Positions 23,718 through 53,160 of a stretch of DNA of 53,357 nucleotides are shown in pieces (the stretch's first letter is position 1; each line of letters opens with the position of its first letter). The stretch comes from a virus. The position numbers were made by a program, and so were the translations under genes. The notes under the pieces were generated by a model. The model saw only the letters and a list, made by a program, of their open reading frames with translations. It had not been told where the DNA came from and searched no databases. The stretch is from IMG/VR virus record IMGVR_UViG_3300028025_005064, positions 1-53,357 of that record; one strand, written 5' to 3'.

Positions 23718-24092
23718 TTAAGCATTTTCAACAACCCTTCTTGCACCAACGATTAAATGATGAAGTCTTCCACCAAAGCCCATTTGCTTACGGATGCTTA
23801 TTATTTCCAATGGACCAGTTTCAATTACATTTCCATAACGATCTTTTACATTTAAAATTCTATTATTGTAAGAGATAAAACCAGAGTCTTGATAAGAAAT
23901 GTAAAACTTATATTCTTCAATGTTTTCAATATATGGCTCAATTCTTCTTTCGCTGACTCCTGACTGGTAAGAGGCAGGGATAGTCGCTGTTTTTGTAAAT
24001 GTTATTGTTTTTTGACCGGCAGCATTTGTATCAGTTATTTTTTGATAAACATCAACCGTGTGTACAAACCTTAGATATGTTTTTGCTGCCAT
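23718..24092 (-). CDS. Head-closure/stopper-type protein
   Basis: A 124-aa beta-rich protein. HTVDVYQKITDTNAAGQKT at the N-terminus, SERRIEPYIENIEEYKFY in the middle and YNNRILNVKDRYGNV near the end fit the phage head-tail joining family (SPP1 gp16-like). It lies directly after the connector gene (one-base overlap) and before the gp10-like gene, the canonical order. Expected to close the connector pore after packaging and bind the tail. Confidence 0.75.
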   Translation of the reverse strand: MAAKTYLRFVHTVDVYQKITDTNAAGQKTITFTKTATIPASYQSGVSERRIEPYIENIEEYKFYISYQDSGFISYNNRILNVKDRYGNVIETGPLEIISIRKQMGFGGRLHHLIVGARRVVENA

Positions 24093-25003
24093 TAGACCAC
24101 ATAATCCATCACAAACAGTGTGTAATCCATAAGCAAGATATCTGCTTCAATGTTTCCTGTTGATTCATAGAAGTTCTGATTCATATACAACGAGATTGCA
24201 TCCATGTCAGCTCTATAAATTCCGTGATTACGATATTCAGAGTCATTATTCATAATATCGGCAACAAGAAGTTGAGCAGCCTGCTTGACATTATCGGGAA
24301 CATATCTCCAGCCATAATCTCCAGTTACTTTATAAATAGAGTCATTATTAAATTTTCCAATAAGAAATGTGTTCTCTAAACTATTAGACTTTTTAAATCT
24401 AATGTTCCAGCTTGTATCAAAGCCAAAACCTTGCTTTACTTTTTCAATATTTGATGTATTCTCTCCGTAGAGAATAAACTCATCATCAGTTCCGGGGTCT
24501 TGTACAACATCAGTCATTGTTGAGATAGGTAATGGTAATCTAAGGCTCGAAAAACCGTTGCCATTTATAGAGATTGAAAGATCCTGATAGAAGTCAAAGG
24601 ACTGTCCACAGAATGTATTAATTATGTTCCTGACCCTCTTGTTCAGAGCTTCAAAATTGTTGGCAAATGTATCCTCAAGTTCTGGATAAAGGTCAAAAAA
24701 CTCTGAGGCCGTCAAGTAGGGGGTATAGACATTTATATAGTCAGATTGGGTATAGGAAACACCAGATACCGTATAGGTAAAATCAACCCTGTGCTTGCCT
24801 GCTGAATTTAAAATATAGATTCCCGAGCTTCTCTGCCCAAAGGTAATTGTATAGACCCCTGTGCCCGTTCTAGTGGCGCTGGATGGACCTGAGACTAAAT
24901 CCCCAAACTCATGATACAGCGATACCGATACCAGATTGGATGTTGGGTCACTTGGCAGGGTTAGTGTAAGGGTTTTAGATGTATTGATTTTTACTTCATC
25001 CAT
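24092..25003 (-). CDS. Head-tail connector (adaptor) with N-terminal Ig-like domain
   Basis: A 303-aa protein. Residues about 1-95 are a beta domain of BppU/Ig type (SKTLTLTLPSDPTSNLVSVSL, KHRVDFTYTVSG). From about residue 95 the helical adaptor begins: TASEFFDLYPELEDTF, KRVRNIINTFCGQSF, then RYVPDNVKQAAQLLVADIM, the usual connector pattern. It is the first of the head-completion genes, separated from the capsid gene by the 14-kb accessory block. The extra N-terminal domain may sit outside the connector ring. Confidence 0.78.
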   Translation of the reverse strand: MDEVKINTSKTLTLTLPSDPTSNLVSVSLYHEFGDLVSGPSSATRTGTGVYTITFGQRSSGIYILNSAGKHRVDFTYTVSGVSYTQSDYINVYTPYLTASEFFDLYPELEDTFANNFEALNKRVRNIINTFCGQSFDFYQDLSISINGNGFSSLRLPLPISTMTDVVQDPGTDDEFILYGENTSNIEKVKQGFGFDTSWNIRFKKSNSLENTFLIGKFNNDSIYKVTGDYGWRYVPDNVKQAAQLLVADIMNNDSEYRNHGIYRADMDAISLYMNQNFYESTGNIEADILLMDYTLFVMDYVV

Positions 25004-25044: not shown

Positions 25045-25335
25045 TCAAAACTGCCAAAAATGTTTAAGGATAGAAAGACTGGCTAGAATTACCCAAGCAA
25101 CATTAAAAAGGATGATTGTTGGGAGGGTCTTGCGGGTTGATGTCCAGATGAGGGCAACGCTTGAAATAATGGCAAAGATATACAACCACCAGAACTGCTT
25201 GCCAAGAAGAAGACCCGGAAAGATAATTGCAATCTTTGTCGTAAAACCCCATGCTTCTACTGAGTTAACTTTTGTCCAGTAAGAACGACTACTCATCGTT
25301 TTTATGGCTTCAATTATTTTTTTAAAAAATTCCAT
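25045..25335 (-). CDS. Small integral membrane protein
   Basis: A 96-aa protein with a basic amphipathic N-terminus and three hydrophobic segments at about 30-45 (IAIIFPGLLLG), 49-63 (WWLYIFAIISSVALIW) and 73-92 (TIILFNVAWVILASLSIL). No family recognised. Its first codons overlap the end of the 270-aa gene by 22 bases, with GGAA about ten bases upstream of the ATG. It is the last gene of the accessory block. A lysis or uptake role is possible, but the gene lies far from the endolysin cluster. Confidence 0.7.
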   Translation of the reverse strand: MEFFKKIIEAIKTMSSRSYWTKVNSVEAWGFTTKIAIIFPGLLLGKQFWWLYIFAIISSVALIWTSTRKTLPTIILFNVAWVILASLSILKHFWQF

Positions 25336-26126
25336 CTCTTAGATTCCTTTTCTAGCATTTCTGCATCATTATCTCTTTGTTTTTTTCTATAATATATTCT
25401 AGTGTTTGTTGCAGGTATTGAGCTATCTCCTAATCCAGAATTTTGTACAAATTTGTACATAGACTCATTACCCCAAACTATTCTCTTAGTATTATCATTC
25501 CTTCTCACGGGAATTAAATGTTGCAGAGGTGTTCCTGCTGGAATTGTGAATTCCTTGTCTGTCTTGATGTTAAGCACAATATGTATTTGGTTATAGAAAT
25601 CTGTATGAATCAGCCCTGGGACAATTTCATAATTGGGGTTTGGCTCATGCAATAAAGGTAAAGCCATTAGCGAAACTCCTTTGGGCGTTCTGTACCTCCA
25701 AGGAGAAACTAGCTTGATATATTGGCTTTCAGGAAGTTTTTTCAAATTCTCCATTGGGCATCCCGATGCTGATGCAGCGCTAAATCCATTGATTGAAAAA
25801 TTTCCTTCTGGGAACTGATTCATCGGGTCAATTCTTGCTTCAAAATTTTTTCCAGTTATGTCAGGTCTAACAGTCACATTTGACCATGAAGGAATGATAA
25901 TTCCAAAACTAACTAAATCATATGTCCCCTCGCACGAGCGAAGAGTCCCTTTATCCTTGGGGAGATTTTTCCACCACGAAGGTAGCTTCCCATTTGCAAC
26001 ATATGGAGGTATTTCAATCAACCTATTGTCTTGGGGGACAATAACTATTTCACCCCTTTTGGGGGTAGGCATATCCTGCCTATACTTTGCAATTCTATAT
26101 TTGAATTTGTCTGAGCGATTCAGCAT
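25314..26126 (-). CDS. Conserved phage protein next to halogenase, unknown function
   Basis: A 270-aa protein when started at the ATG at 26126, which has AAAGG seven bases upstream; an upstream in-frame ATG at 26201 would lengthen the overlap with the halogenase gene to 107 bases. Features seen: PSWWKNLP near the N-terminus, an isolated Cys before a hydrophobic strand (LRSCEGTYDLVSFGIIIPSW), a SPWRYRTPKGVSLMALPL strand, PGLIHTDFYNQIHIVLN, and GTPLQHLIPVRR near the end. I recall this motif set in hypothetical proteins of marine phages that carry a halogenase and a prolyl hydroxylase, but cannot confirm it here. The fold looks like a double-stranded beta-helix. Possible partner of the halogenase. 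Confidence 0.75.
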   Translation of the reverse strand: MLNRSDKFKYRIAKYRQDMPTPKRGEIVIVPQDNRLIEIPPYVANGKLPSWWKNLPKDKGTLRSCEGTYDLVSFGIIIPSWSNVTVRPDITGKNFEARIDPMNQFPEGNFSINGFSAASASGCPMENLKKLPESQYIKLVSPWRYRTPKGVSLMALPLLHEPNPNYEIVPGLIHTDFYNQIHIVLNIKTDKEFTIPAGTPLQHLIPVRRNDNTKRIVWGNESMYKFVQNSGLGDSSIPATNTRIYYRKKQRDNDAEMLEKESKRWNFLKK

Positions 26127-27555
26127 GGTCAACCTTTGCGTGAGCTGTTTGTTTAAGTTTAGCATCAGAAACGATTCTCTTGACCATTTCTTCTGAACCA
26201 AAAGAACTTATCATATCTTCAGCTGCTTTTGCTGATAAAACTTTTTGACCTTGGGCTACATGATAGAAATGAGGTATAAGAAACATCTCATAGTTATTAC
26301 CAGATATATCATAAGGGTAAGGCGGTCTTTCCTGCCAAAGATCTAGTAGTTCCAAGAGATAGTCCGGTTTCTTCATGACCTGTTGCTGCCTCCACATTGC
26401 GCTATCTGTTCTGTCAGAAATGTAGTGCAATGAAATCATTGCCAAAATATTTTCCATCATTATATTCATTTTTTTATTATATGACTTTTGCATATGTGTT
26501 GAGCCATGATTGTAATTACCTAAGTTCTGCATCAAGCACCTTACTTGCTGAATGGTTGAACCGATTGAAGATGCCTCAATTGGCTCAACAAAAGCACCAG
26601 CTAGACCGACTACAACACAGTTTTTTACCCAAAACTCTTTAACATGACCGGGTTCAAATTTTATACTTCTTGCAGGGTTCACTTCAAAACCCAGAAGGTC
26701 TGATACTTCTTTTATAGCCTGATCTTCTGTGCAATGATTTGAAGAATAGACATACCCATTTCCTCTACGATCTTGTGTTGGGATTTCCCAGACCCAGCCA
26801 TTACTGAGCGCCCTTGCTCTTGTGTATGGTCGTATCTCTCCAGATGGATCAGACTCTGTAGGGAAAGCTATGGCAGAATCCATTTGCAAATAGTCTTTGA
26901 ACGAATTCCATTGAACATCGGATACTGCTGATATCAATAGTCTCTTCATCCCTGTTGCATCAATCCAGAAATCTGACTCAACCGTTAGTAAAGAATCAGT
27001 CATAACAGAATCAATACATCCATTTTCTGGGTTTAAATTTACCTTAATAACTTCTGCATCCGTTATTGAAATATTTCTATATAAACATATACTTGTTAAA
27101 TAATTATTTAATGCAAAAGTATCGAAATGAAATTGATTAGTTGATTCATGAGGGTCATTAGCATTAACTTTGTTCTCAATCAATGATCTTGACCCGGTAT
27201 TTTCTGTTATTGTTTTATTGTCTTTAATTAAACCATTGTATAAAGAGTAGTAGCCAAAAGGCTCTTCTACTTCAACCCTAGACACGCTGTGAATGTAATC
27301 TGGAGTATGGTTAGTCCAATTTTCAAACCGAATTCCGTACTTATGTGTAGCTCTTGTTTGAACAATTAATTCACCAACAGGTATGTCACATAATTGCATA
27401 AAAGAACGCCAATGTTCTGTTGACCCTTCACCAACTCCGATAATACCAATTTTAGATGATGAGATAATATTAATTTCAAATTTTGGAAAAGCTTTTCTAA
27501 GAATCAAAGCTGAAATCATACCAGCAGTACCGCTACCAACAATAGTGACTTTCAA
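26095..27555 (-). CDS. Flavin-dependent tryptophan-halogenase-like enzyme
   Basis: A 486-aa flavoprotein. It carries the FAD dinucleotide motif GSGTAG at 7-12, GVGEGSTEHW at 40-49, and WVWEIP at 254-259, the WxWxIP hallmark of the family. K72 in THKYGIRFENW aligns with the catalytic lysine of PrnA-type halogenases (K79), and EPIEASSI near 324-331 matches the conserved EPLEST loop, with Ala at the Ser position. Members oxidise halide with reduced FAD to make HOCl or HOBr that reacts at the lysine. A viral member (VirX1) from a cyanophage is known to iodinate small molecules. No flavin reductase is in view. The start codon is TTG at 27555, four bases after the previous stop. Confidence 0.88.
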   Translation of the reverse strand: MKVTIVGSGTAGMISALILRKAFPKFEINIISSSKIGIIGVGEGSTEHWRSFMQLCDIPVGELIVQTRATHKYGIRFENWTNHTPDYIHSVSRVEVEEPFGYYSLYNGLIKDNKTITENTGSRSLIENKVNANDPHESTNQFHFDTFALNNYLTSICLYRNISITDAEVIKVNLNPENGCIDSVMTDSLLTVESDFWIDATGMKRLLISAVSDVQWNSFKDYLQMDSAIAFPTESDPSGEIRPYTRARALSNGWVWEIPTQDRRGNGYVYSSNHCTEDQAIKEVSDLLGFEVNPARSIKFEPGHVKEFWVKNCVVVGLAGAFVEPIEASSIGSTIQQVRCLMQNLGNYNHGSTHMQKSYNKKMNIMMENILAMISLHYISDRTDSAMWRQQQVMKKPDYLLELLDLWQERPPYPYDISGNNYEMFLIPHFYHVAQGQKVLSAKAAEDMISSFGSEEMVKRIVSDAKLKQTAHAKVDHAESLRQIQI

Positions 27556-27558
27556 GAT

Positions 27559-28617
27559 TTACTTCATTTCTTCCAATAGACTTAGCAACTTCAATACAGT
27601 GCTAGAATCCTTATTAATGTTTGTTTCAAAATATTGCTTCAAAAACTCTGGTGTAAATACATTTAAATCATTTTCAATATATATTTGATATAGCGCATTT
27701 TCAATACGATTTTTATAACTCGTACTGGAAAAGGATGAGAATTCGTTCTTCCTTGGGTGGTTAGTAAACAGCTGATAAAGACTCTTATACTTGCATTTAT
27801 TTTTAAAATAAATCTTTAACAACTCTGGTGTTTCTATATTTTCGTCAAAAGAATAGACCTGTCTTGTTTCTCCTTGGAGATATCGTGAAACTCTCATATC
27901 AACTTGCTCATCAACTACTTGAGTCATCACTTCCTCTGGAATCTGCAATTCCTCTAAGAAATCATGAGCAACTTTGGAGATTTGTTCTTGATTATTAAAT
28001 GGCTCTTTATGAGACTCTGACCATTCGTATATAGCTTTTATAGCACCCGATAGTGTTCTAGCTCCTGTATTGATAGATTGGGAATCAGGGTTGGGGTTCT
28101 CAGTGTTGTTCGTAAAAATACAAAGAAGATGACCAATGCCACCAACATCTAGGACATTGAAAATATTGGTTACAGCAATAGGGTTTCTTGTCGAATAAAA
28201 TGGTATAGACCCAAATTTATTATAATCACACCTAACAAAGTCTTCCGGAAGAGAAGCGTCTTGCTGTATATAATTTTGTTTTTCCGGAATTTCTATTGAT
28301 TTCATAAAAGAATACATAATCAACTTATCTTGCTTTGGTCTATCAAATAATTCTTCATATTTCTCATATGAACAATTTTGGAAATAAACTTTATTTGAAC
28401 CAGATAAGTAAATATAATTTTGATAACCAAGATGAGTTACACGGAATGCAATCAATGTCCCAGCATCTGTGCTGAATAAATCATATTCACTAGGATCAAC
28501 ATCAATAAGACCTGAAGATACATTGAATTTCAATAAAACTTCACCAGTCTCTTCAGTCAAGTAATAATGCATATATAGTGCTGGGTTTAATTCAGAAATA
28601 TTTCTCATGTAAACCAT
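27559..28617 (-). CDS. Hypothetical protein in the halogenase/hydroxylase block
   Basis: A 352-aa AT-rich gene product that I do not recognise. N-terminal part is beta-rich (GEVLLKFNVSSGLIDVD, GTLIAFRVTHLGYQNYIYL), followed by helical segments with charged repeats (FNNQEQISKVAHDFLEELQ, TPELLKIYFKNKCKY, TPEFLKQYFETN). The two TPE-LLK/FLK-YF segments look like an internal repeat. It overlaps the hydroxylase by 13 bases if begun at 28617, or by an ATGA of four bases if begun at 28608. Its place between two oxidative enzymes suggests a substrate or partner protein, by position only. Confidence 0.7.
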   Translation of the reverse strand: MVYMRNISELNPALYMHYYLTEETGEVLLKFNVSSGLIDVDPSEYDLFSTDAGTLIAFRVTHLGYQNYIYLSGSNKVYFQNCSYEKYEELFDRPKQDKLIMYSFMKSIEIPEKQNYIQQDASLPEDFVRCDYNKFGSIPFYSTRNPIAVTNIFNVLDVGGIGHLLCIFTNNTENPNPDSQSINTGARTLSGAIKAIYEWSESHKEPFNNQEQISKVAHDFLEELQIPEEVMTQVVDEQVDMRVSRYLQGETRQVYSFDENIETPELLKIYFKNKCKYKSLYQLFTNHPRKNEFSSFSSTSYKNRIENALYQIYIENDLNVFTPEFLKQYFETNINKDSSTVLKLLSLLEEMK

Positions 28618-29198
28618 GTTACCAGACTATATTTAGTTCCGCTTACCACTGGGTGAGCAATATGAGTGTAAGGAAAATTCGATGGGAATAGGACTAAAGA
28701 ATTTGTTTCCAATTTTATCCTTAAGTCGAAGTAAGGAAATTCAAGTTCTCCGCCTTCATCAGCTGCCCCAAAGCATGCTACTAAACTTAAAATTCTCTCA
28801 TTGCTTGAACCGTGGTCGTGATGTGCATGGTATTGAGCATTGCTTTCATACTTAAGTAGATTAAATGGCTCGGCTGCTTTCAACTGAAGATCAAATGATT
28901 CACGATAATCCCATATGCATTTATCAATATCATAAAATAATGCCATTGCATCTTTTGAGATATCCTCTAAATCTTCAGATATCTCATTTCTCAGTAATTC
29001 ACTAAAGTTAGATTCAACAGATGTTCTATACTCATTATCTGAACGCTCTGAACCCTCGCCAGTAAAAGACTTATCCCATGTTATATATGGCCAAGTTCGC
29101 TGTGTTTCTTTTTCAAATTTTGAAATAAAATCCTTAATATCAAAAGAGTCTTTATAAACCCATATACAAGGAGCTTTTTCATATTTTTCAATATACAT
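28605..29198 (-). CDS. 2-oxoglutarate/Fe(II) prolyl-4-hydroxylase-like enzyme
   Basis: A 197-aa double-stranded beta-helix oxygenase. Iron ligands are H126 and D128 (in AQYHAHHDHG) and H179 in the segment YTHIAHPVVSGTKYSL; K189 is ten residues after H179, where P4H enzymes hold the 2-oxoglutarate-binding Lys/Arg. The strand pattern LSLVACFGAADEGGELEFPYF is a standard P4H core. Such enzymes hydroxylate Pro (or other residues) on proteins, using O2 and 2-oxoglutarate. Phages often carry one near fibre genes; a structural-protein substrate here is inference. It overlaps neighbours on both sides. Confidence 0.85.
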   Translation of the reverse strand: MYIEKYEKAPCIWVYKDSFDIKDFISKFEKETQRTWPYITWDKSFTGEGSERSDNEYRTSVESNFSELLRNEISEDLEDISKDAMALFYDIDKCIWDYRESFDLQLKAAEPFNLLKYESNAQYHAHHDHGSSNERILSLVACFGAADEGGELEFPYFDLRIKLETNSLVLFPSNFPYTHIAHPVVSGTKYSLVTWFT

Positions 29199-29589
29199 TA
29201 TATCTAAATTCTTTCATTACAGTGTTGTTGATTACAATTTTTGCAATCTTTTTTCCAACTTCTTTTTCTTCAAAAAGAAATTTTATTCTATTTTTTTCAA
29301 TCAATATTGCTTCATGACACTTATTATCAATCAATAATTTGCAATTTTTGTTAAAAGATACAAAGTCGTTAATATAGTTTACATTTTGATGAAAATTGTT
29401 TTCAACATTTTCTTTATATGATACATCATTAAATTCAGGTATTTCTAAAATTTGTGTTATATTTCTGTCAAAAAATAAACCCTCAGAGCCTTCAAAGTCT
29501 CCAATATTTATTGGCAAAAAAGAATATTTTGCAATACAGCTTGCTTCATCTAAGTTTTTTTCTGATGGGCAATAAATGACCCTTCTCAT
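29188..29589 (-). CDS. Hypothetical AT-rich protein in modification block
   Basis: A 133-aa protein, rich in Asn, Ile, Lys and Phe, with several single Cys residues and no motif I recognise. Base composition is visibly more AT-rich than the surrounding structural genes, suggesting separate acquisition. It overlaps the hydroxylase start by 11 bases and follows the 75-aa gene by two bases, so translation is likely coupled with both. Confidence 0.65.
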   Translation of the reverse strand: MRRVIYCPSEKNLDEASCIAKYSFLPINIGDFEGSEGLFFDRNITQILEIPEFNDVSYKENVENNFHQNVNYINDFVSFNKNCKLLIDNKCHEAILIEKNRIKFLFEEKEVGKKIAKIVINNTVMKEFRYNVY

Positions 29590-29591
29590 TT

Positions 29592-29819
29592 TTACAGACT
29601 TTCTATTTTTGCAATTAAAGTATTAAGTTTATTATATGTAATATACATACGATTCTCATTGCTTGGGGCAATTGCGTCTTCTAGGTCAAGAATCTTAGTT
29701 AAGTCATAACTATCAGGGTCATGCCCCGCTATCAATAACATTTGATATAGCTCCATTTCAGCACCAATTTTGGCTGATTCAAGCAATGCTTTTTTTTGCT
29801 CGTTAGTAATCGTAAACAT
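29592..29819 (-). CDS. Small helical protein downstream of glycine-rich adhesin
   Basis: A 75-aa acidic helical protein starting MFTITNEQKKALLESAKIG. AEMELYQMLLIAGHDPDSYD and a short C-terminal helix dominate. It has the look of small phage chaperone or regulatory proteins, but no family is recognised. A strong AAGGAGAAA ribosome site precedes the ATG. It is 8 bases after the large glycine-rich gene; an assembly-chaperone role for that protein is conceivable. Confidence 0.68.
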   Translation of the reverse strand: MFTITNEQKKALLESAKIGAEMELYQMLLIAGHDPDSYDLTKILDLEDAIAPSNENRMYITYNKLNTLIAKIESL

Positions 29820-29827
29820 TTTTCTCC

Positions 29828-31501
29828 TTATTGGTTTAATATGGTGTAAACTGCACCTGAAGAACCAGTACCACTTACAGGGTTAGCACCACCGCTCGCA
29901 CTGGTTGTTACTCCAGATAAAGCTGCTTCTGTAATGATAATTATACCACCACCACCACCTGCTTGACCAGCAGTTCCCGCAGTTGTTGATCCGTTAGTTC
30001 CAGCAGTTGTTGAAAAGTTTGATCCAGCACTGCCAGCACTGCCAGCTGGACCTCCAACACCTCCAGGATAAGACCTTGTTATAGCATGAGCCTGAGTCCC
30101 TGCTTGTCTGCGATTTCCATTTCCATGATAGCCATATAAGTCATGTCTTCCTCTATGAGCAACGGCATGACCATGATAATGGACTGCTGGCTCATGTGCA
30201 CCTTTGTAGTGATATGCGGGGAGATGATATGGGCCAGATGCGTGATGATCAGCTTCAGCATAGTGATTATGACCAACAGGGGCAGAAGTATGTACATAAG
30301 TATGCGCAACCGCCCCGTCATGACCTAACGTGTTACCAGCAGTATGGTTTACATTATTAACTGCATAAAAAACCGATGTAGGGGGTACAGGTGCGTGACT
30401 GGTTGATGCTCCTCCAAAATGAGGAGAACTTCCATGATGACTGTTGGCAGGATGAACTGGAGTTGCGTCATGCGCTGTATAGGTCCATGACCCATGTGCG
30501 TGGTCTAGTGAATGTTCAGTAACATGAGGACCTCTAGGGAGGGCAGGAGTCCCGTAATGAATGGTTGCGTTATCTCCACCTCTCGTATAAGATGCATGAG
30601 TATTTGCAGCATGATAAATACTTGCACTAGGGGAGGATGACCCTGCCGACCCATTAGCGCCATTTGTTGCCCCAGTGCCTGTCGCTGATGCCCCAGCCCC
30701 TGTTCCTGTTGCAGAAGACCCCCCTGCAGTGCTATTACTTCCTTCTGAGCGAACAACTCCTGTTCCACTGATGTTCTTTGCAACAATTACTACTACTGGA
30801 CCACCTCTTGCTCCTGCCCCCGCAGATGCAGCAGGGGGTGTCGATCCAGCAGATGCGGCAGGGATTGCTATTCCCGCAGACCCATTAGTTCCATTTGTCC
30901 CTCTATTTCCCGGACCGCCGGGATACCCAGCATTTTGAGAAGGCAAACTTCCTGCTTGCCCTGTCCATGTTGAGGGAGATTCAGTTGCTCCAGTGCCATT
31001 AGCACCTGGAGTTAATGTCCCAGCAACCCCCGGAGTAACGGTGCCAAGGCTACCATTCCCCCCACCAGCGCCTCCGGTAAAAGAAAGGAATGATCCAGAT
31101 GTATTGACATGCCCTGCTCTTAGAATATTCTCAATATCGGAAACCACGCTTGCGGGCACTTGTGATGCTGTATACACTCCACCAGAAGCAGTTCCTCCAA
31201 TTGAATTGGTTACGCTTGTTGCAATATTAGCTGTCCCAGCAACTGTAGCAGTTGATACAGAAACCCCTGATGCGACACCTATTGAGCCATTGACAGTTAG
31301 TGTATTTTTTACAAAAACTTTAAAACCATTTGTATTAAGATGAACTCCATTGTTAATTGTTAAGTTACTGTAATACATGTCTCTAGTAAGAGATGTGTTG
31401 GAAGCAATTATTACGGTTCCGTCAGACCCCGTTCCATAAACTGAATCATTACCAATTCTTTGAACTTTTGCGGGTGAGTTAAATCTTTCTAATGCGCCCA
31501 T
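29828..31501 (-). CDS. Large glycine-rich adhesin-like protein with His-rich section
   Basis: A 557-aa virion-type protein. The N-terminal about 90 residues (YGTGSDGTVIIASNTSLT, NLTINNGVHLNTNGFKVFVKN) are paralogous to the next gene upstream. Glycine-rich blocks follow (FTGGAGGGNG, AGYPGGPGNRG, GGAGPAG-type). A section at about residues 300-475 carries roughly 30 His, many in HxH arrangement (HYHGH, HNH, HAH). The end GGIIIITEAALSGV resembles the partner protein. Gly-rich domains of this style form the receptor-binding tips of phage S16-type adhesins. HxH metal sites occur in T4 gp37. Both are analogies, not proof. Confidence 0.78.
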   Translation of the reverse strand: MGALERFNSPAKVQRIGNDSVYGTGSDGTVIIASNTSLTRDMYYSNLTINNGVHLNTNGFKVFVKNTLTVNGSIGVASGVSVSTATVAGTANIATSVTNSIGGTASGGVYTASQVPASVVSDIENILRAGHVNTSGSFLSFTGGAGGGNGSLGTVTPGVAGTLTPGANGTGATESPSTWTGQAGSLPSQNAGYPGGPGNRGTNGTNGSAGIAIPAASAGSTPPAASAGAGARGGPVVVIVAKNISGTGVVRSEGSNSTAGGSSATGTGAGASATGTGATNGANGSAGSSSPSASIYHAANTHASYTRGGDNATIHYGTPALPRGPHVTEHSLDHAHGSWTYTAHDATPVHPANSHHGSSPHFGGASTSHAPVPPTSVFYAVNNVNHTAGNTLGHDGAVAHTYVHTSAPVGHNHYAEADHHASGPYHLPAYHYKGAHEPAVHYHGHAVAHRGRHDLYGYHGNGNRRQAGTQAHAITRSYPGGVGGPAGSAGSAGSNFSTTAGTNGSTTAGTAGQAGGGGGIIIITEAALSGVTTSASGGANPVSGTGSSGAVYTILNQ

Positions 31502-31502
31502 A

Positions 31503-32234
31503 TTATACCAATTGAGAGTATATCACTGAACCATTGACACAACTTGTTCCGCCTGTTACATCAGTTGTGATTCCAGTTGGTAAGGCTGAATGGGTTGAAA
31601 CAACAATGATTACTCCACCTCCTCCTCCACCGCCACCAGTTAATCCAGAGGCTTTAAAATAAGAAGTTGCGGTTGGGGAAATATAACGAGCAGCGATAAT
31701 AATAACTCCACCTCCCGGACCTCCAGAACCACCTGCACCCCCTCTTAAAAAGAGTGGTGTTGTGTTGCTTGCGTTAATGACATATCCTTTTACAGATTGG
31801 GTTGGTTGGTACCAGAATCCACTTGTCGTTGTTTTATCGCCTGTACCGCCTTGTGCGACTGTTGGTGGAGTTGCAGTCTGTGTTGCACTGTTTCCTCCAA
31901 GGCTATTTGTAACCGCAGTATTAGTAGCACCACCACCCGCAATAGAGCCAGTGCCTGAAAAACCAGTCGTCATCGTATAGTTGTTGGCTGTACCTACTCC
32001 AATAGTAGAGTTAGATGCAAGAGTTAAAATATTCTTTACAAAGACTCTATAACCCGCAGTGTTTAAAACAACATTGGAGTCAACAGTAAGATTATAATAA
32101 AATTTGTCGGAGGTTAAAGTTGTGTTTGCAGAGATAGTTACTGTTCCATCAGAGCCAGTGCCATAGGTTGAGTCTGGGGCATCAATGAATGATGAGAAAG
32201 CATTTGCGGAAGGAAATCGAGATATACCGGCCAT
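31503..32234 (-). CDS. Glycine-rich adhesin-like protein, short paralogue
   Basis: A 243-aa protein sharing the N-terminal domain of the 557-aa neighbour (YGTGSDGTVTISANTTLT, VVLNTAGYRVFVKNILTL) and a Gly-rich C-terminal block with GGAGGSGGPGG and a GGGGGGG run before VIIVVS. It lacks the His-rich insert. It ends one base before the longer gene begins, so the pair arose by tandem duplication with domain loss or gain. The glycine run suggests a polyglycine-II bundle or a surface loop in a virion fibre tip. Confidence 0.78.
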   Translation of the reverse strand: MAGISRFPSANAFSSFIDAPDSTYGTGSDGTVTISANTTLTSDKFYYNLTVDSNVVLNTAGYRVFVKNILTLASNSTIGVGTANNYTMTTGFSGTGSIAGGGATNTAVTNSLGGNSATQTATPPTVAQGGTGDKTTTSGFWYQPTQSVKGYVINASNTTPLFLRGGAGGSGGPGGGVIIIAARYISPTATSYFKASGLTGGGGGGGGVIIVVSTHSALPTGITTDVTGGTSCVNGSVIYSQLV

Positions 32235-32593
32235 TACGACTCCTCAACTCCAAAAATAGTTACATTCAATGCAGAGTTTGCAGAACATAAAAATGTAATC
32301 TGATCGCTAGTTGTGTTGCTTGCAGTATTTCCATTGTTAATTAAAACCATTGAACAGTTAAAAGCAAGAGTTTCATTAGCATTAACTGTTATATTACTTA
32401 ATATATCATGCGTATTGGCTTCGGCAACATTAAGAGGCTTTAAACGAATGGTTGCAGTTCTTGAAGACGCTGTTGTATTTGTGATTAGAATTTGTTTAAC
32501 AATTGTAGTTGTGTTTAGAGGTACAGTATAAGCAACAGCAGTAACTGTTGATATCTGAGTTGGACCAGCCAACCTTTTTTGACTAATTGGCAT
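32234..32593 (-). CDS. Small beta-rich virion protein
   Basis: A 119-aa Ser/Thr/Asn-rich beta protein. The segment TVNANETLAFNCSMVL matches TVNANETVSYDAGIVL in the 110-aa protein encoded at 38319-38651, so the two are paralogues. The first 20 residues (MPISQKRLAGPTQIS) differ. The family resembles small Ig-like or decoration-type beta-sandwich proteins. It overlaps the adhesin gene by one base and follows a fibre gene. A capsid- or fibre-associated role is inferred. Confidence 0.7.
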   Translation of the reverse strand: MPISQKRLAGPTQISTVTAVAYTVPLNTTTIVKQILITNTTASSRTATIRLKPLNVAEANTHDILSNITVNANETLAFNCSMVLINNGNTASNTTSDQITFLCSANSALNVTIFGVEES

Positions 32594-33351
32594 TATATAA
32601 CCTCCATATAGAACTTGATCATGTTGTCACGAACAGTATTTCTATTTACCCATGAACTACCATTATATTCTAAAACTTGTCCTGATGCTGGAGTTGTGAT
32701 AGAAACATCGTGAAGCTCATCTATTTCATACCCATTTTGAGTTGCTACATAGATAATTCCATTGTTTGTTGCACGAACAACGACTCCAATAAAAACAAGG
32801 TGTTCAGGAGCAGATGGCTTTGTTTTTGTAAATGCCCCATCCTCTGCAAGCCATAGAACATCGCCAGCCGTATACCCAACAGATAGGTCAATTCCGTCTA
32901 CATAGCCCCGAGTGACAACAGGACCGTTTTCAGAAGATGCAATCGATGAAGCGACTAATCCTACTGTTTTGGATGATGTAACATCAGAGTCATTGTCTGC
33001 TCTTTTTACGGTTGCATGATCTCCCGTTGCTCCAAAAAGGTAAACAACAGTTCCAGCCGTAAGCGTTGTTGCCTCGGCATTACGAACATATGTTGCCGTT
33101 GAAGAATATTGATTAACCCAGTTAGTACCATTATAAACAAGAGATTCATACTCCAATGGAGATGTAATTACCACATCGCTAAGACCATCAAGATTTATAG
33201 AACCAGCAGTGCCAAACTCCACAATTGCGTTGGATCCGTTTTTGTAAAAAATCTTTCCATCGGCATAGTTCAGCCCCAGTTCACCATATTCAAGCGAACC
33301 GGGGACTGCGGAGGTCGTACCTGAGTTTTTTATTTTAATGGTGTTAGCCAT
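32593..33351 (-). CDS. Tail fibre-like protein with N-terminal adaptor repeat
   Basis: A 252-aa protein. Its N-terminus (MANTIKIKNSGTTSAVPGSL, then YGELGLNYADGKIFYKNG) is shared with the next gene upstream and is typical of short fibre attachment domains. The rest has repeated VNQYSS/VNRNTV-like beta strands (GLSDVVITSPLEYESLVYN and LHDVSITTPASGQVLEYN are internal repeats). It is cotranscribed with the longer fibre, 12 bases downstream. Likely trimeric. Confidence 0.75.
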   Translation of the reverse strand: MANTIKIKNSGTTSAVPGSLEYGELGLNYADGKIFYKNGSNAIVEFGTAGSINLDGLSDVVITSPLEYESLVYNGTNWVNQYSSTATYVRNAEATTLTAGTVVYLFGATGDHATVKRADNDSDVTSSKTVGLVASSIASSENGPVVTRGYVDGIDLSVGYTAGDVLWLAEDGAFTKTKPSAPEHLVFIGVVVRATNNGIIYVATQNGYEIDELHDVSITTPASGQVLEYNGSSWVNRNTVRDNMIKFYMEVI

Positions 33352-33363
33352 TACTTCCTCCTA

Positions 33364-34452
33364 CTAGAAAGTACCGCCATCTACTGTATCAGACCACGAA
33401 GGTACGCCTGCTACAACCTTAAGGAACTGACCTGCTGAACCAATCCCAAGTTTTGCAAGGGTATTAGTAGCCGATGAGTAAACCAAGTCACCAGTTGTGT
33501 AAGAGCTAAGACCAGTACCACCGTAGGCTGCTCCAATGGCTGTGCCATTCCATACACCAGTCACAATAGTGCCAAGTGTGGTCAAACTTGAGTTTGTGAT
33601 TCCTGACCCCAAAGTGGTATTTGAAAGAACCGAAGTTCCAGCGATTTCGTAAACTTTTCCTGCAAGAAGGTTGAAATCTTCTGAAGAAGTCCATGCGTCA
33701 GTTGCGTCAACCCAATTAAGGGTCTTATCTGTTGCACCCTTGATTGTGAAACCGGCACCGTCTGCAGTTGTGTCTGTTGGTGTAGCAACATTTGCAAGAA
33801 CAATATTCTTATCCTCAACAGTTAGAGTTGCGGTGTTAAGAGTTGTTGTATTACCATTAACAACAAGATCTCCAGTAATTGTAAGAGTGTTAGAGATTGT
33901 AACATCAGCTGGAAGGCTAATTGTTACCGCTCCAACACCCGAGTTAGAAACTGCAACTTGATTTGCAGTGCCAGTAAGACCAGTGACAAGATTTGTCGCT
34001 CTGTCACTAACTTGAGAAGCGGTGATTGAAATGGCTGTGTTTGAGGCAGCGGTTAAACGACCGTCAGCCTGAACAGTGAAAGTACCGACTGTACCAGCAC
34101 CACCATAAGAGCCAGCCGTTACTGCTGTGTTTACAAGAGTAACGCCAGCAATTGCATTATCAACATAAAGTTTTGTTGTAGCATGAGTATTTGCTGTTGG
34201 AGTTGGAACAAGAACAAGACCATTAAATGTCTTATTTCCAGTTACTGTCTGGACTCCCGAAAGCGTAAGATATGCTCCTGCACCAGCAACTGCCTCAACA
34301 GTTGTAGCAGTTCCACCCGCTCCGCCTGTTCCCTTACCATAGTAAAGAACATCGTCTACTTCGTTATATGCAAGTTCTGCATTTTCCAGAGAGGCCGGTG
34401 CACCAGCTGCTCCACCAGAAGCCCTTCTTTTGATTCTAATTGTATTAGCCAT
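33364..34452 (-). CDS. Tail fibre protein, long form
   Basis: A 362-aa protein. The ATG at 34452 is chosen because GGAGG lies upstream, it gives MANTIRIKRRASGG, matching the next paralogue, and the previous gene stops at 34454. The N-terminal region (GAPASLENAELAYNEVDDVLYYG) is the adaptor, followed by VTGNKTFNGLVLVPTPTAN, the repeated domain found in many fibres, and a long beta-helical stretch of Asn/Thr/Val-rich strands (TVEDKNIVLANVATPTDTT). C-terminal portion VWNGTAIGAAYGGTG is the typical fibre linker. Function: host or surface attachment, by family. Confidence 0.82.
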   Translation of the reverse strand: MANTIRIKRRASGGAAGAPASLENAELAYNEVDDVLYYGKGTGGAGGTATTVEAVAGAGAYLTLSGVQTVTGNKTFNGLVLVPTPTANTHATTKLYVDNAIAGVTLVNTAVTAGSYGGAGTVGTFTVQADGRLTAASNTAISITASQVSDRATNLVTGLTGTANQVAVSNSGVGAVTISLPADVTISNTLTITGDLVVNGNTTTLNTATLTVEDKNIVLANVATPTDTTADGAGFTIKGATDKTLNWVDATDAWTSSEDFNLLAGKVYEIAGTSVLSNTTLGSGITNSSLTTLGTIVTGVWNGTAIGAAYGGTGLSSYTTGDLVYSSATNTLAKLGIGSAGQFLKVVAGVPSWSDTVDGGTF

Positions 34453-34453
34453 T

Positions 34454-34729
34454 TTAGTAATTACCTCCATCAAGTAATGTATTTGCGATTGAGTGAGCAT
34501 GGTCTGCTCTACTTGCAACCTCAAGAACTCCGCTATTTGCGGATCTTGCTATATCCAATGGCGATGCATTGGATAATGTTAAAATTCTTTCTAGTGTTAC
34601 TGTTGTTGGAGCGCCAACAATGGTTGTTATATCACCATTCTGAACGCTCAATATACTTGCATCACCACTAGACACAGATAAATTTGTTATATCACCAGTA
34701 TTAACCTGTAAGATTGTTGTATCAGCCAC
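34454..34729 (-). CDS. Small fibre-associated protein with repeated VSSGD strands
   Basis: A 91-aa protein: three short VNTGDITN, VSSGDASI, VQNGDITT repeats, then a Thr/Ser-rich stretch and ADHAHSIANTLLDGGNY at the end. The repeats suggest a short beta-helix or adaptor. The end motif (ADHAH) occurs in fibre domains. It overlaps the BppU-like gene by 8 bases and ends two bases before the fibre start, so the three genes are likely translated together. Confidence 0.68.
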   Translation of the reverse strand: MADTTILQVNTGDITNLSVSSGDASILSVQNGDITTIVGAPTTVTLERILTLSNASPLDIARSANSGVLEVASRADHAHSIANTLLDGGNY

Positions 34730-44739: not shown

Positions 44740-46812
44740 TTAATGAACAATGTTGTCTTTAATAAGTTTGATTTCGCAACTATCTGTTGTGCAATAGCTT
44801 TCTCCAACTGCGTCAGCAGCCATTCCTGCATATACACCTTCAAAGTCAATCGGGAATAATTTCATCTCACCATCGTTGATATATTCATCTTCAGTAATTT
44901 GAGTGTAGGGCATTTGTGGATAAGTAAAGTTTCCAGAAGGTAGGAATGAAACAGTCTTTAATTGACCATCATACATATGAAGAACTGTCCCAACATGCTT
45001 TTGCTCAGTTTCCGAATCAAAAGATATTGTTACAGAAACAGAATTATCTGACCAATATCTCTGAGCAACAGAGGCAATCGCCATCTTTTCAAAGATAGTT
45101 ACATCACGCTCTGCTCTTTCAGCATCAGATTTAATTGGGAAAAATACAACAGATGTTGTATCTGGAGATTCAGATGCAGGCTCAACACGATAATTAGCCA
45201 TTTTAAAAAGAGGGAGCATTGGATCATCATTACTAAACCGAATAGCTCTAAGGAAATATTTTCCTCCTGGTGTCCAATGAACCCCTGGGGATTCTCCGGC
45301 AAGGATTGAAACTGTCCCCGATGGTTTAACAGTTGTCATCTTGATTGATTCACGAATACCAAACCATTCAGAATAAATATTGTCATATCTTTTAACTGTT
45401 TCATAACCATTGTCCATCCACTCACGAAGAACTGGAATCCCGTTAATATCAGCAAAATTAGCAATACCAGACATTGATGCACCAATACGGCGATTTCTCT
45501 GCATGATTGCATTTGTCTTTTCCCAATGGGTTGGAAGAAGAGTTACAGTCTTCGCATAGAGATATGCAAATTTCAAAGTACGCTTATAGTCTTCAAGTGA
45601 CTCATGACGATTTAAATAAGTCTCAACAAGCGTACAGCACTCATAGGACTCAAGTGACTGCTCTGCACAAGGGTTGTATCCAGCAACACGCCAGTCTTTA
45701 TTATTTGGCGGATCAATTAGTCGGCCATACTTACGAGACATATCCATCCAAATAACCCCAGGTTCTCCATTTAGAGCAATACCATCAACAATATTTGAGA
45801 TATCAGCACCAACAGATGTCTCAATAGAGTTATTACTCATCCAACCCCAGCCAGGGTTTTCAGAATCATAAGAATTTCTTTCAGGAAATTTTTCAGCGTT
45901 TTTAAGATTTAAAAATTCTTCCGTATTGCGACCAATAAAAAGTTCTGCTGAACGGCGAACATTCCCTGAGACAACACAGACCCCGATAAGATTTCCAATA
46001 TCAGCAATATCAACGGCGCTAATTTTTTGACCAGCACGACCATCAAACATCTTTTTAATAGCTTTGTGCAGTTTAATTAATGGCTCCGGCCCAGAAGCAG
46101 TTCCACCAAATGTCGCAATCGGAGAACCATACGGTCTAATTAAAGAATAATCAAATTCAATTGTATTCTGTTCTGGCTTAAGATAAGAATTAATCAAATC
46201 CCCAGTAGCTCTTGCCCAACTTTCACGATCATCAGCAATGACATCAGTAGTTACTGTTGTTTTAGGCTGATAGATTATAAAATCTTTATCTGAACCCTTG
46301 TCGTCAAATCCAACACCAATTCCAAGCATTGAGGCTTCCATTAAGAAAGAGAACGGCTCTGCCGGATTGTCTTTACTCATTTCAGATGTAGAAACAAATG
46401 CACAGTTCTGCAGAGCAGCGGAATTCTTGTGAACATTTACAAGAGGAGTTCCCATAATCCAAAGTCCACGCCCCGGCGGTGTCCACTTAAGGTTAAATAA
46501 ACGATCAAATGCTTCTTTTGCACTTGCTTGGGCTTTTACCCCATTCCAAGGAAGACGATTTTTTTTGCAATGGTCTTTCTGAAGTGAATACATACCATTG
46601 ATGACACGCTCACATACATCTGCCCATGTTTCTTTTGTTCCATCGGTTTTCTTACGAGAGTAAGTACGAAGAAAAGTAATTTCTCCAACCGAGTTGCCAG
46701 CAGCATCTCGATAACCAAATGGTGGTTTTTGACTTCTATAAGAGGAAATAAAATCCTCGCTAAGTCTGAAAGAAAAGAAAGATGTATCTTCTTTTGGTGT
46801 GTTTAAAATCAT
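44740..46812 (-). CDS. nrdJ: Class II (B12-dependent) ribonucleotide reductase
   Basis: Makes deoxynucleoside triphosphates from NTPs with adenosylcobalamin, so it works with or without oxygen. 690 aa, near the length of the monomeric Lactobacillus leichmannii enzyme. Landmarks: NCAFVST with C137 (redox pair), NPCAEQ with C382 as the thiyl radical site, C393 eleven residues after it, matching the C408/C419 spacing. The end has C-x4-C (CTTDSC), the swinging-arm pair. PSGTVSILAGESPGVHW matches the phosphate loop. It precedes the portal block. Phage class II reductases are common in marine phages. Confidence 0.93.
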   Translation of the reverse strand: MILNTPKEDTSFFSFRLSEDFISSYRSQKPPFGYRDAAGNSVGEITFLRTYSRKKTDGTKETWADVCERVINGMYSLQKDHCKKNRLPWNGVKAQASAKEAFDRLFNLKWTPPGRGLWIMGTPLVNVHKNSAALQNCAFVSTSEMSKDNPAEPFSFLMEASMLGIGVGFDDKGSDKDFIIYQPKTTVTTDVIADDRESWARATGDLINSYLKPEQNTIEFDYSLIRPYGSPIATFGGTASGPEPLIKLHKAIKKMFDGRAGQKISAVDIADIGNLIGVCVVSGNVRRSAELFIGRNTEEFLNLKNAEKFPERNSYDSENPGWGWMSNNSIETSVGADISNIVDGIALNGEPGVIWMDMSRKYGRLIDPPNNKDWRVAGYNPCAEQSLESYECCTLVETYLNRHESLEDYKRTLKFAYLYAKTVTLLPTHWEKTNAIMQRNRRIGASMSGIANFADINGIPVLREWMDNGYETVKRYDNIYSEWFGIRESIKMTTVKPSGTVSILAGESPGVHWTPGGKYFLRAIRFSNDDPMLPLFKMANYRVEPASESPDTTSVVFFPIKSDAERAERDVTIFEKMAIASVAQRYWSDNSVSVTISFDSETEQKHVGTVLHMYDGQLKTVSFLPSGNFTYPQMPYTQITEDEYINDGEMKLFPIDFEGVYAGMAADAVGESYCTTDSCEIKLIKDNIVH

Positions 46813-48339: not shown

Positions 48340-49038
48340 ATGGATTATAAGAATACAGTATTTGATGTTCTAGATCACGGAGAAATTGAACTTCTTGATG
48401 TAATGGGCAATGATTTGTCAGTGGTTAATGCAGCAAAGGTTTCATTCGCTGCGCAAGTAAAAGAGATTGATGAAGCCTCTGTTGGGCTTATCAATTACCT
48501 TATGAAGAATAAGCATGCAACACCTTTTGAGCATGTAATTTTTAAATTTAGAGTTAAAGCCCCAATTTTTGTAACAAGAGAATGGATGAGGCATAGGTGG
48601 TCATCATTCAATGAGATGAGCATGAGATATCATGTTCCACCAGTTATTGATTACTATATTCCAGCATCCAATAATATTCGTAAGCAAGTTGGTAAGCCCG
48701 GAGCCTATTCTTTTGAACAGATTGATGATTTAGAACTTAAATCATTGGTAACTAGGAGAATGCAAGAGGTTATTGGCTATGCAGATCTTGTGTACAGAGA
48801 CTTATTGGATTTAGGAGTAGCAAAAGAAATTGCTAGATGTGTACTTCCTGTTTCTCAATATACAGAGTTTATTTGGACAGTTAATGCTCGAAGTTTGATT
48901 AATTTTATTTCATTGAGGAATGAATCAAATGCTCAATACGAGATTCAAGAGTATGCAACAATCATTGAAGCGTATTTTGCACAAATTATGCCTATAACCC
49001 ATAGTGCCTTTATTGGTGCAGATAGGGTTGCGATTTGA
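48340..49038 (+). CDS. thyX: Flavin-dependent thymidylate synthase
   Basis: Methylates dUMP to dTMP with FAD, NADPH and methylene-tetrahydrofolate. 232 aa. The ThyX signature RHRx7S is at R84-H85-R86 to S94 (RHRWSSFNEMS), followed by MRYH. FKFRVKAPIFVTREW precedes it, and ARCVLPVSQYTEFIW holds the other conserved region. It is the first rightward gene after the divergent region. It pairs functionally with the class II reductase in the other operon. Many actinobacteriophages carry ThyX. Confidence 0.95.
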   Translation: MDYKNTVFDVLDHGEIELLDVMGNDLSVVNAAKVSFAAQVKEIDEASVGLINYLMKNKHATPFEHVIFKFRVKAPIFVTREWMRHRWSSFNEMSMRYHVPPVIDYYIPASNNIRKQVGKPGAYSFEQIDDLELKSLVTRRMQEVIGYADLVYRDLLDLGVAKEIARCVLPVSQYTEFIWTVNARSLINFISLRNESNAQYEIQEYATIIEAYFAQIMPITHSAFIGADRVAI

Positions 49039-52488: not shown

Positions 52489-52558
52489 TTTTGCATTTGG
52501 ATTTGTTATTGCATCAGGAATGGCATTTATTTTTTTTATTAGGAATTGGAAAAAATGA
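52481..52558 (+). CDS. 25-aa membrane peptide between DUF1599 and Ntn-hydrolase genes
   Basis: A frame too short for usual gene callers: ATG at 52481 overlaps the previous stop (ATGATTGA), the stop overlaps the next start (AAATGACAACA). GGTGG lies six bases upstream. The peptide is almost entirely hydrophobic (FAFGFVIASGMAFIFFI) with a basic end RNWKK. Coupled on both sides, hence likely translated. It may be a single-span membrane peptide; function unknown. Confidence 0.65.
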   Translation: MIDFAFGFVIASGMAFIFFIRNWKK

Positions 52559-53160
52559 CAACAATTGTAGGTATACAAGGAAATGGTTACTCAATTATAT
52601 GCACAGATTCAAGGGTTTCATCTTTTGACGAAGGTGGAATGGCTTATCAAATTACAACACTTGGAACTGGTACATCAAAGGTAGCGCAGAATGGTCGCTA
52701 TCTTCTTGGGGCTGCCGGTGATGTCAGAGCTATTAATATCCTTCATCATGTTTTTGTACCTCCAGTCCCTCCTTTTACAGAGGGTGGAGTAAAATTAGAC
52801 CATTTTATCACTCAGAAATTTATTCCGGCACTAAGAAACTGTTTTGAAAATACAGGATATGCAATGCCTGATAATGATGATAAAAGTCATATTGCCGAGC
52901 ATTCTTCACAGATTCTTGTTGTTGTAAATGGTACTATATACATTATTGATGGTGATTATTCTTGGACTTCTGATAAGACCGGGATATATGCAATCGGTAC
53001 AGGTTCATCTTACGCTTTAGGTGCCTTATATTCTTTGACAAATGGAAAAGAAATGACATCTGCAAAAGCAAGGTCTGCAATTAATAAGGCATTATCTATT
53101 GCATCAAAGTTTGATCCTTACACTGGAGCACCATTTCAAACTTTTGTACAGGAGCAATAA
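52555..53160 (+). CDS. Proteasome-beta/HslV-like Ntn hydrolase
   Basis: A 201-aa protein. Starting at the ATG at 52555, removal of Met leaves Thr1: TTIVGIQGNGYSIICTDSR places D17 exactly where proteasome beta subunits hold their conserved Asp. SKVAQNGRYLLGAAGD supplies a Lys near 41 (K33 equivalent, with an insert) and the G-rich turn. GIYAIGTGSSYALGALYSL matches the conserved GSGS-Y-AL-G region. No alpha subunit or ATPase is nearby. Phage proteases of this type are rarely noted; function could be self or host protein cleavage. The start at 52546 would block the N-terminal Thr. Confidence 0.82.
   Translation: MTTIVGIQGNGYSIICTDSRVSSFDEGGMAYQITTLGTGTSKVAQNGRYLLGAAGDVRAINILHHVFVPPVPPFTEGGVKLDHFITQKFIPALRNCFENTGYAMPDNDDKSHIAEHSSQILVVVNGTIYIIDGDYSWTSDKTGIYAIGTGSSYALGALYSLTNGKEMTSAKARSAINKALSIASKFDPYTGAPFQTFVQEQ

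Follow-up and report, generated by a model that had tools for sequence, protein, structure and literature searches.

Why should a tailed phage carry genes for a halogenase and an oxygenase among the genes of its virion, and on what might the two enzymes act? The question is raised by a 53,357-base IMG/VR record (the window, the whole stretch that was analysed), whose genes lie on the minus strand and include those for the portal, head protease, major head protein (MCP), tail fibres, head-tail adaptor, tail tip and a tape measure of 2739 residues. In the direction of transcription, the fibre genes 33364-34524 and 32593-33351 and the gene 32234-32593 are followed by H1, H2, A, B, C, D, E, F and G and then by the adaptor gene 24092-25003. 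Genes adjoining this cassette match the tail fibre (phrog_9729) and L-shaped tail fibre assembly (phrog_3304) families. A sequence-only reading of the DNA had drawn the seven genes A to G inside a structural gene cluster; all seven are present on the minus strand, at the coordinates given below, and they do lie among structural genes.

Gene E (26095-27555, minus strand; 486 residues) matches the Pfam family Trp_halogenase (PF04820, 5.1e-99) and the PHROG family phrog_2928 (2.1e-103). It contains the FAD-binding motif G7xG9xxG12 and the motif W254-V-W-E-I-P259 (WxWxIP); among 59 distinct relatives, 97-100% keep G7/G9/G12, K72, W254, E257-I258-P259 and E327. In a PDB sequence search K72 and E327 align with the catalytic Lys and Glu motifs of solved halogenases; these alignments stop near residue 391-440, the C-terminal part of E being the least comparable. 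The hallmarks from which a halogenase had first been recognised (FAD motif, WxWxIP and catalytic Lys) prove nearly invariant among the 59 relatives, and by its motifs E is a flavin-dependent halogenase of the tryptophan type. The same search matched E (2.8e-39) to VirX1 of cyanophage Syn10 (PDB 6QGM), the viral halogenase named in the sequence-only reading and likewise a phage-encoded flavin-dependent enzyme; E is, however, much closer to halogenases of other uncultured phages. Gene C (28605-29198, minus strand; 197 residues) matches PF13640 (2.9e-12), and its best PDB match is a bacterial P4H (1.8e-6). The iron ligands H126, D128 and H179 are kept in 93-97% of 92 sequences and position 189 (K189) is Lys or Arg in six aligned homologues, so that the four P4H ligands previously assigned to C stand. 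The name prolyl hydroxylase stands in part: C is a 2OG/Fe(II) oxygenase of the P4H-like superfamily, whereas the ‘prolyl’ specificity is not established.

A scan seeded by the halogenase recovered 80 viral loci at 41-74% identity. Over 81 loci, relatives were found of F in 77, C in 75, H1/H2 in 70, B (29188-29589, minus strand; 133 residues, with no Pfam family matched) in 67, the small conserved gene A (29592-29819, minus strand; 75 residues) in 64, mostly between H2 and B or C, G (25045-25335, minus strand; a conserved hydrophobic protein of 96 residues) in 46 and D (27559-28617, minus strand; 352 residues) in 35, and the gene order is the same in most lineages. Because counts seeded by the halogenase would be circular, the search was then seeded by H1 alone. 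The halogenase was present in 62 of 76 newly fetched loci (best 80 matches kept), the other 14 all ending before the halogenase position; with divergent H1 seeds it was present in 58 of 62 newly fetched loci (again the best 80 matches kept), and the four remaining contigs also end before that position. Every locus with enough contig thus carries a halogenase (62/62 and 58/58, in two scans that overlap in contigs), usually together with the 2OG enzyme and F, and no informative H1-H2 locus without one was seen among the best 80 matches of either scan. In two loci (L014 and L018) H1/H2, E and F are present and a 2OG gene was not detected nearby. F and D, used as single-protein queries against viral contigs, gave almost no hits, which reflects search patterns that need near-exact peptides and not a lack of homologues.

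This coupling does not simply follow from genome relatedness, because about 55 distinct cassettes (halogenases under 90% identical) lie in differing flanks and the genes stay adjacent despite rearranged order. Among the 51 cassettes with at least four flanking genes, 49% of pairs have no common flanking gene family; in rearranged lineages B-C-E-C-F precedes 32234-H1-H2, or the two parts lie on convergent strands, with the genes still side by side. Two phages have two cassettes each. In the halogenase tree all E proteins from loci bearing H fall in one clade (support 100/99). Inside this clade only L062 and L066 have long flanks but no H; they carry C, a divergent F and a cassette-clade E, and H1/H2 were not found in them. 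When bacterial genomes were scanned with the halogenase, four MAG contigs were recovered, and the two that have cassette genes are probably binned phage. The check for co-conservation suggested by the sequence-only reading therefore returned strong linkage, with catalytic residues that are nearly invariant by alignment.

The linkage is specific to part of the locus. Loci of the fibre gene 33364 with room downstream comprise 11 with both H and E, 13 with neither, none with H only and two with E only, E lying at the contig end in both of the latter; this neighbouring fibre gene is not coupled to the cassette. In phages whose major head protein is at least 83% identical to that of the window the cassette is often absent, and 15 related records, the longest of 93.8 kb, gave neither H1 nor a halogenase in a profile search. 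In nine loci (on seven contigs) another adhesin, also Gly-rich but with 0-1% His, occupies the slot, flanked as in the window by the MCP, fibre and 32593 genes on one side and by 24092 onward on the other; in two of these phages most genes of either flank are about 40-92% identical to those of the window. None of the nine loci has E, C or F. A relative of D is present in most of them, and we take D to be tied to the locus and not to halogenation because it also stands beside the alternative adhesin without the enzymes. The three uncharacterised genes first counted in the run do exist, but D is the least specific of them.

The same slot is exchanged allele by allele. In phage pairs the backbones are 89-100% identical, yet the H2-A-B-C-E-F blocks are only 26-67% identical. 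Between the window and 3300042400_000421, MCP, 32234, H1, 24092, 23718 and 22767 are 98-100% identical, whereas H2 is 39%, B 33%, C 50%, E 59% and F 54% identical, the range over H2, A, B, C, D, E and F being 28-59%; DNA similarity above 90% ends at the H1/H2 boundary and returns around the end of F. Conversely, 3300042400_000421 and 3300042402_002687 are 90-100% identical over H2-A-B-C-D-E-F, whereas their tail genes are only 43-63% alike. The swap recurs in further pairs (c592/c1449, c2687/c405 and c2067/c2524). Over 12 phages, E identity follows that of H2, B and C (Spearman 0.57-0.62) and not that of the tail genes (-0.05 to -0.11). B tracks H2 (0.71) and C (0.77) most closely, and the correlation of F with E is weak (0.16). 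G, at the outer edge of the swapped block, is 84-100% identical in the close pairs compared, and the identity pattern of H1 follows the backbone and not the enzymes. Judged by these identities, H2, and not H1, is the matched partner of the enzymes, and H2 is named over H1 as the candidate target because it is exchanged together with them. The unit first drawn as 25314-29819 ends at F as proposed, but it starts further upstream and reaches to H2.

Exchange of this kind takes place between conserved neighbours, with H1 bounding it on one side and, on the other, either G or the end of F. Genes that lie side by side move together for mechanical reasons, and recombination in conserved flanks can exchange them even if they do not act on each other. 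The enzymes might then be selfish or generally useful genes that hitchhike at a recombination hot spot, unlinked to H2. We consider this highly unlikely: it leaves unexplained why H1/H2 are never seen without E in an informative locus, why E, C and F are missing with the alternative adhesin in the same slot, and why the genes stay together where their order has changed. We favour a functional link over mere co-exchange on account of these alternative-adhesin loci and rearranged gene orders.

Published phage halogenases raise another option. The prnA (T4-GC 212) tryptophan halogenases of Kyanoviridae (P-SSM2, S-H38) are 35-38% identical to E and that of HTVC008M is 30% identical, and several of this set (P-SSM2, S-H38, HTVC008M) have 2OG oxygenase genes nearby. 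FDHs act mostly on small molecules, a small-molecule pathway has been proposed for a cyanophage cluster that joins a halogenase to several 2OG enzymes and additional biosynthetic genes (PMC7824862), and antibiotic protection has been suggested for prnA of cyanomyoviruses (PMC2984593). The cassette could likewise make a small halogenated and hydroxylated molecule, an antibiotic or signal acting on the host or on competing phages, its adjacency to fibre genes being incidental. However, no further biosynthetic gene (carbamoyl transferase, methyltransferase or ligase) was recognised here, the enzymes follow a single type of adhesin (occurring with H, missing beside the other adhesin and exchanged along with H2 alleles), and the Kyanoviridae halogenases examined lie outside the cassette clade and have no relatives of H, A, B, D or F nearby. 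We regard a small-molecule product as unlikely.

H2 is thus the proposed substrate. H1 (31503-32234, minus strand; 243 residues) is a Gly-rich paralogue of the H2 scaffold, with 30 homologues 44-62% identical to it and no sequence match in 50,697 phage records. H2 (29828-31501, minus strand) joins a conserved Gly-rich scaffold to a His/Tyr/Pro-rich insert of highly variable length and sequence (about residues 297-459 in the window). A His-rich insert is present in nearly all of the 81 H2 proteins, with 15% His inside it and 0.7% outside. At least six consecutive G-x-x triplets occur in 50 of 62 dereplicated H2s, and in the inserts N-P (225 versus 80) and P-G (178 versus 118) are over-represented, as is H-N-P. 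In an AlphaFold model of an H2 homologue (L070, 344 residues) the scaffold is mostly confident and the insert (223-296) is disordered, with pLDDT below 50. From its neighbours, its composition and its replacement by another Gly-rich adhesin, H2 is probably a tail fibre tip or adhesin, and would be a virion protein. The gp38 tail-fibre adhesins of T-even-like phages (S16, PP01) have a polyglycine-rich scaffold with variable tip loops, and the alternative adhesin at window-type loci looks similar to them by eye. H2 differs in that its profile has no match in PDB and its model none in Foldseek; in a second fold comparison, with six chains only, the few hits were weak and were beta-helix proteins (best Z 6.4). 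We know of no modifying enzymes for gp38.

Several ideas about the insert were discarded. An iron-binding HxH tip, as suggested for certain tail fibres, gains no support from the His spacing, since the H2 inserts show no excess of HxH (560 versus 626 expected); the His residues as such may bind metal. No long template repeat of a diversity-generating retroelement lies near H2. Pro content does not serve to signal the presence of the 2OG enzyme: it is low where C is missing (3.5% versus a mean of 5.4%), but two such loci are too few. Tyr or Trp cannot be a universal obligate target, since some inserts contain neither (L159), and in such H2s His or scaffold residues would be needed instead. It speaks against modification of the insert that none of the residue types known to be preferred by halogenases occurs in every insert.

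Directly after E lies F (25314-26162, minus strand). It had been drawn as 25314-26201; the gene is real, but that TTG start lies deep inside the halogenase gene, and F homologues begin about 40-50 nt before the halogenase stop. Members of the family match dUTPase (to 7.6e-10) and, distantly, DUF6065 (16 of 46 members, best 5.8e-5, the window F itself giving none), a domain for which no paper was found in the open-access literature. The predicted structure (pLDDT 88) superposes as a monomer on dUTPases with Z 10.4 (4.7 Å over 128 residues) and Z 10.1 (2.8 Å over 117), and by this model F has a dUTPase fold. Motif 3 of dUTPases (G-x-x-D-x-D-Y) mostly reads P-G-V-V-[HN]-T-D-Y in F, the first Asp being replaced by His or Asn, and the catalytic Asp seems to be absent. 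We take F to be a putative binding partner of E or H2.

We propose, with a probability of roughly 0.6, that the genes A, B, C, E and F, together with that of the phage adhesin H2, make up a cassette for modifying this adhesin after translation, and that the enzymes would act on the H2 insert. H2 would be made as a Gly-rich scaffold with a long, flexible and allele-specific insert, rich in His and also containing Tyr, Trp, Phe, Asn and Pro. C would hydroxylate H2, plausibly at Pro within the N-P and P-G pairs that are over-represented, and E would halogenate aromatic side chains (Tyr/Trp/His), using oxygen, halide and FADH2 from a host flavin reductase, while F would putatively bind the substrate or serve E and H2 as an adaptor. 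Once modified, the tips would be assembled beside the constant H1 and the neighbouring fibre proteins, and might change host binding or resistance to proteolysis. A virion protein as target had been raised by the sequence-only reading; the idea now has much support and the protein can be named as H2, while its modification is something that we infer. VirX1 has an open active site and accepts broad substrates (PMC8407142), and flavin halogenases acting on peptides or proteins exist: ChlH and a marine leader-guided RiPP brominase, of E's enzyme family, have ribosomal peptide substrates (PMC12518702, PMC10286304), although these belong to RiPP biosynthetic clusters and the substrate proposed here is a phage structural protein.

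The fit between enzymes and adhesin would be accounted for equally well if the enzymes altered the receptor of H2 on the host surface, for instance to block superinfection, since adhesin and enzymes would then have to match and be exchanged together. Seroconversion-type modules of other phages act through receptor modification and offer a precedent, and the small hydrophobic protein G and uncharacterised genes lie close by. However, no transferase or transporter was recognised in the cassette, the genes sit in a structural gene cluster and not with early or lysogeny genes, and the finding of a P4H-like enzyme alongside a collagen-like, His/Tyr-rich protein suggests that protein as the target; we consider receptor modification quite unlikely. 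The linkage data favour modification of H2 over a receptor target, a small-molecule product and hitchhiking alike.

Parts of this picture are already known, namely viral halogenases (VirX1), halogenase and 2OG genes in cyanophages, peptide halogenases and viral collagen-modifying hydroxylases. The last are found in the Mimivirus L230 system, in which the virus encodes both collagens and enzymes that modify them, a lysyl hydroxylase among these (PMC9546862, PMC5802723); it differs in belonging to a giant virus, in combining lysyl hydroxylation with glycosylation, in having no halogenase and in not moving as a unit with an adhesin. In the open-access literature we found no halogenase cassette that is both matched to a phage adhesin and exchanged with it. 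The data suggest a virus that chemically decorates its own docking protein, which with halogens we did not find reported.

To our knowledge, the natural substrates proposed so far for phage halogenases are antibiotic-like molecules. Here the genome names a specific candidate substrate for such an enzyme, and the alternative adhesin allele supplies a built-in negative control, with matched and mismatched enzyme-adhesin pairs existing in nature. If the proposal is true, halogenation would join the known viral protein modifications, the travelling of halogenase and 2OG genes with fibre genes would be accounted for, and the phages would be a source of natural protein halogenases with allele-specific substrates. 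A bolder version, to which we give a little less than even odds, is that phages diversify attachment by swapping an adhesin along with matched enzymes that halogenate and hydroxylate its His/Tyr/Pro-rich tip, which would be the first halogenated virion protein. The host-recognition code of these phages could then, just as tentatively, be partly post-translational, in spirit like the halogenated Gly/His-rich structural proteins of marine organisms.

The adhesin-halogenase cassette can be carried more than once by a single phage: it is present twice in contig 3300021376_000077 (loci L005 and L030), and two such cassettes are likewise found per single phage contig at L127/L128 (3300042545_001591, 3300042291_001557). 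The largest version of H2 encountered, the Gly/His-rich putative adhesin, has 1042 aa (L138, 3300042296_000700). Only two long-flanked loci, L062 and L066, have an in-clade halogenase without H1 or H2; both retain a 2OG gene and a divergent form of the dUTPase-fold gene F, together with several unlabelled genes of roughly 190-250 aa each.

Cassette genes also occur in contigs filed as Actinomycetota (L164, RHAS01000028.1) and Gammaproteobacteria (L165, PBNR01000003.1) MAGs, both of which look like binned phage contigs. In a contig filed as a Verrucomicrobia MAG (L167, NHDJ01000130.1), the gene for a further Gly-rich protein (34%) is followed within a few kb by a pair of halogenase genes and four of 2OG type, a possible parallel case of enzymes beside an unrelated adhesin.

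Elsewhere, the window encodes a B12-dependent ribonucleotide reductase and ThyX (44740-46812 and 48340-49038) and, for a phage, a proteasome-subunit-like protein (52546-53160; PF00227, 5e-8). Gene D (window 27559-28617; also L241, L273 and L378) is kept next to the alternative, His-poor adhesin where the enzymes are absent, and may be a fibre assembly factor.
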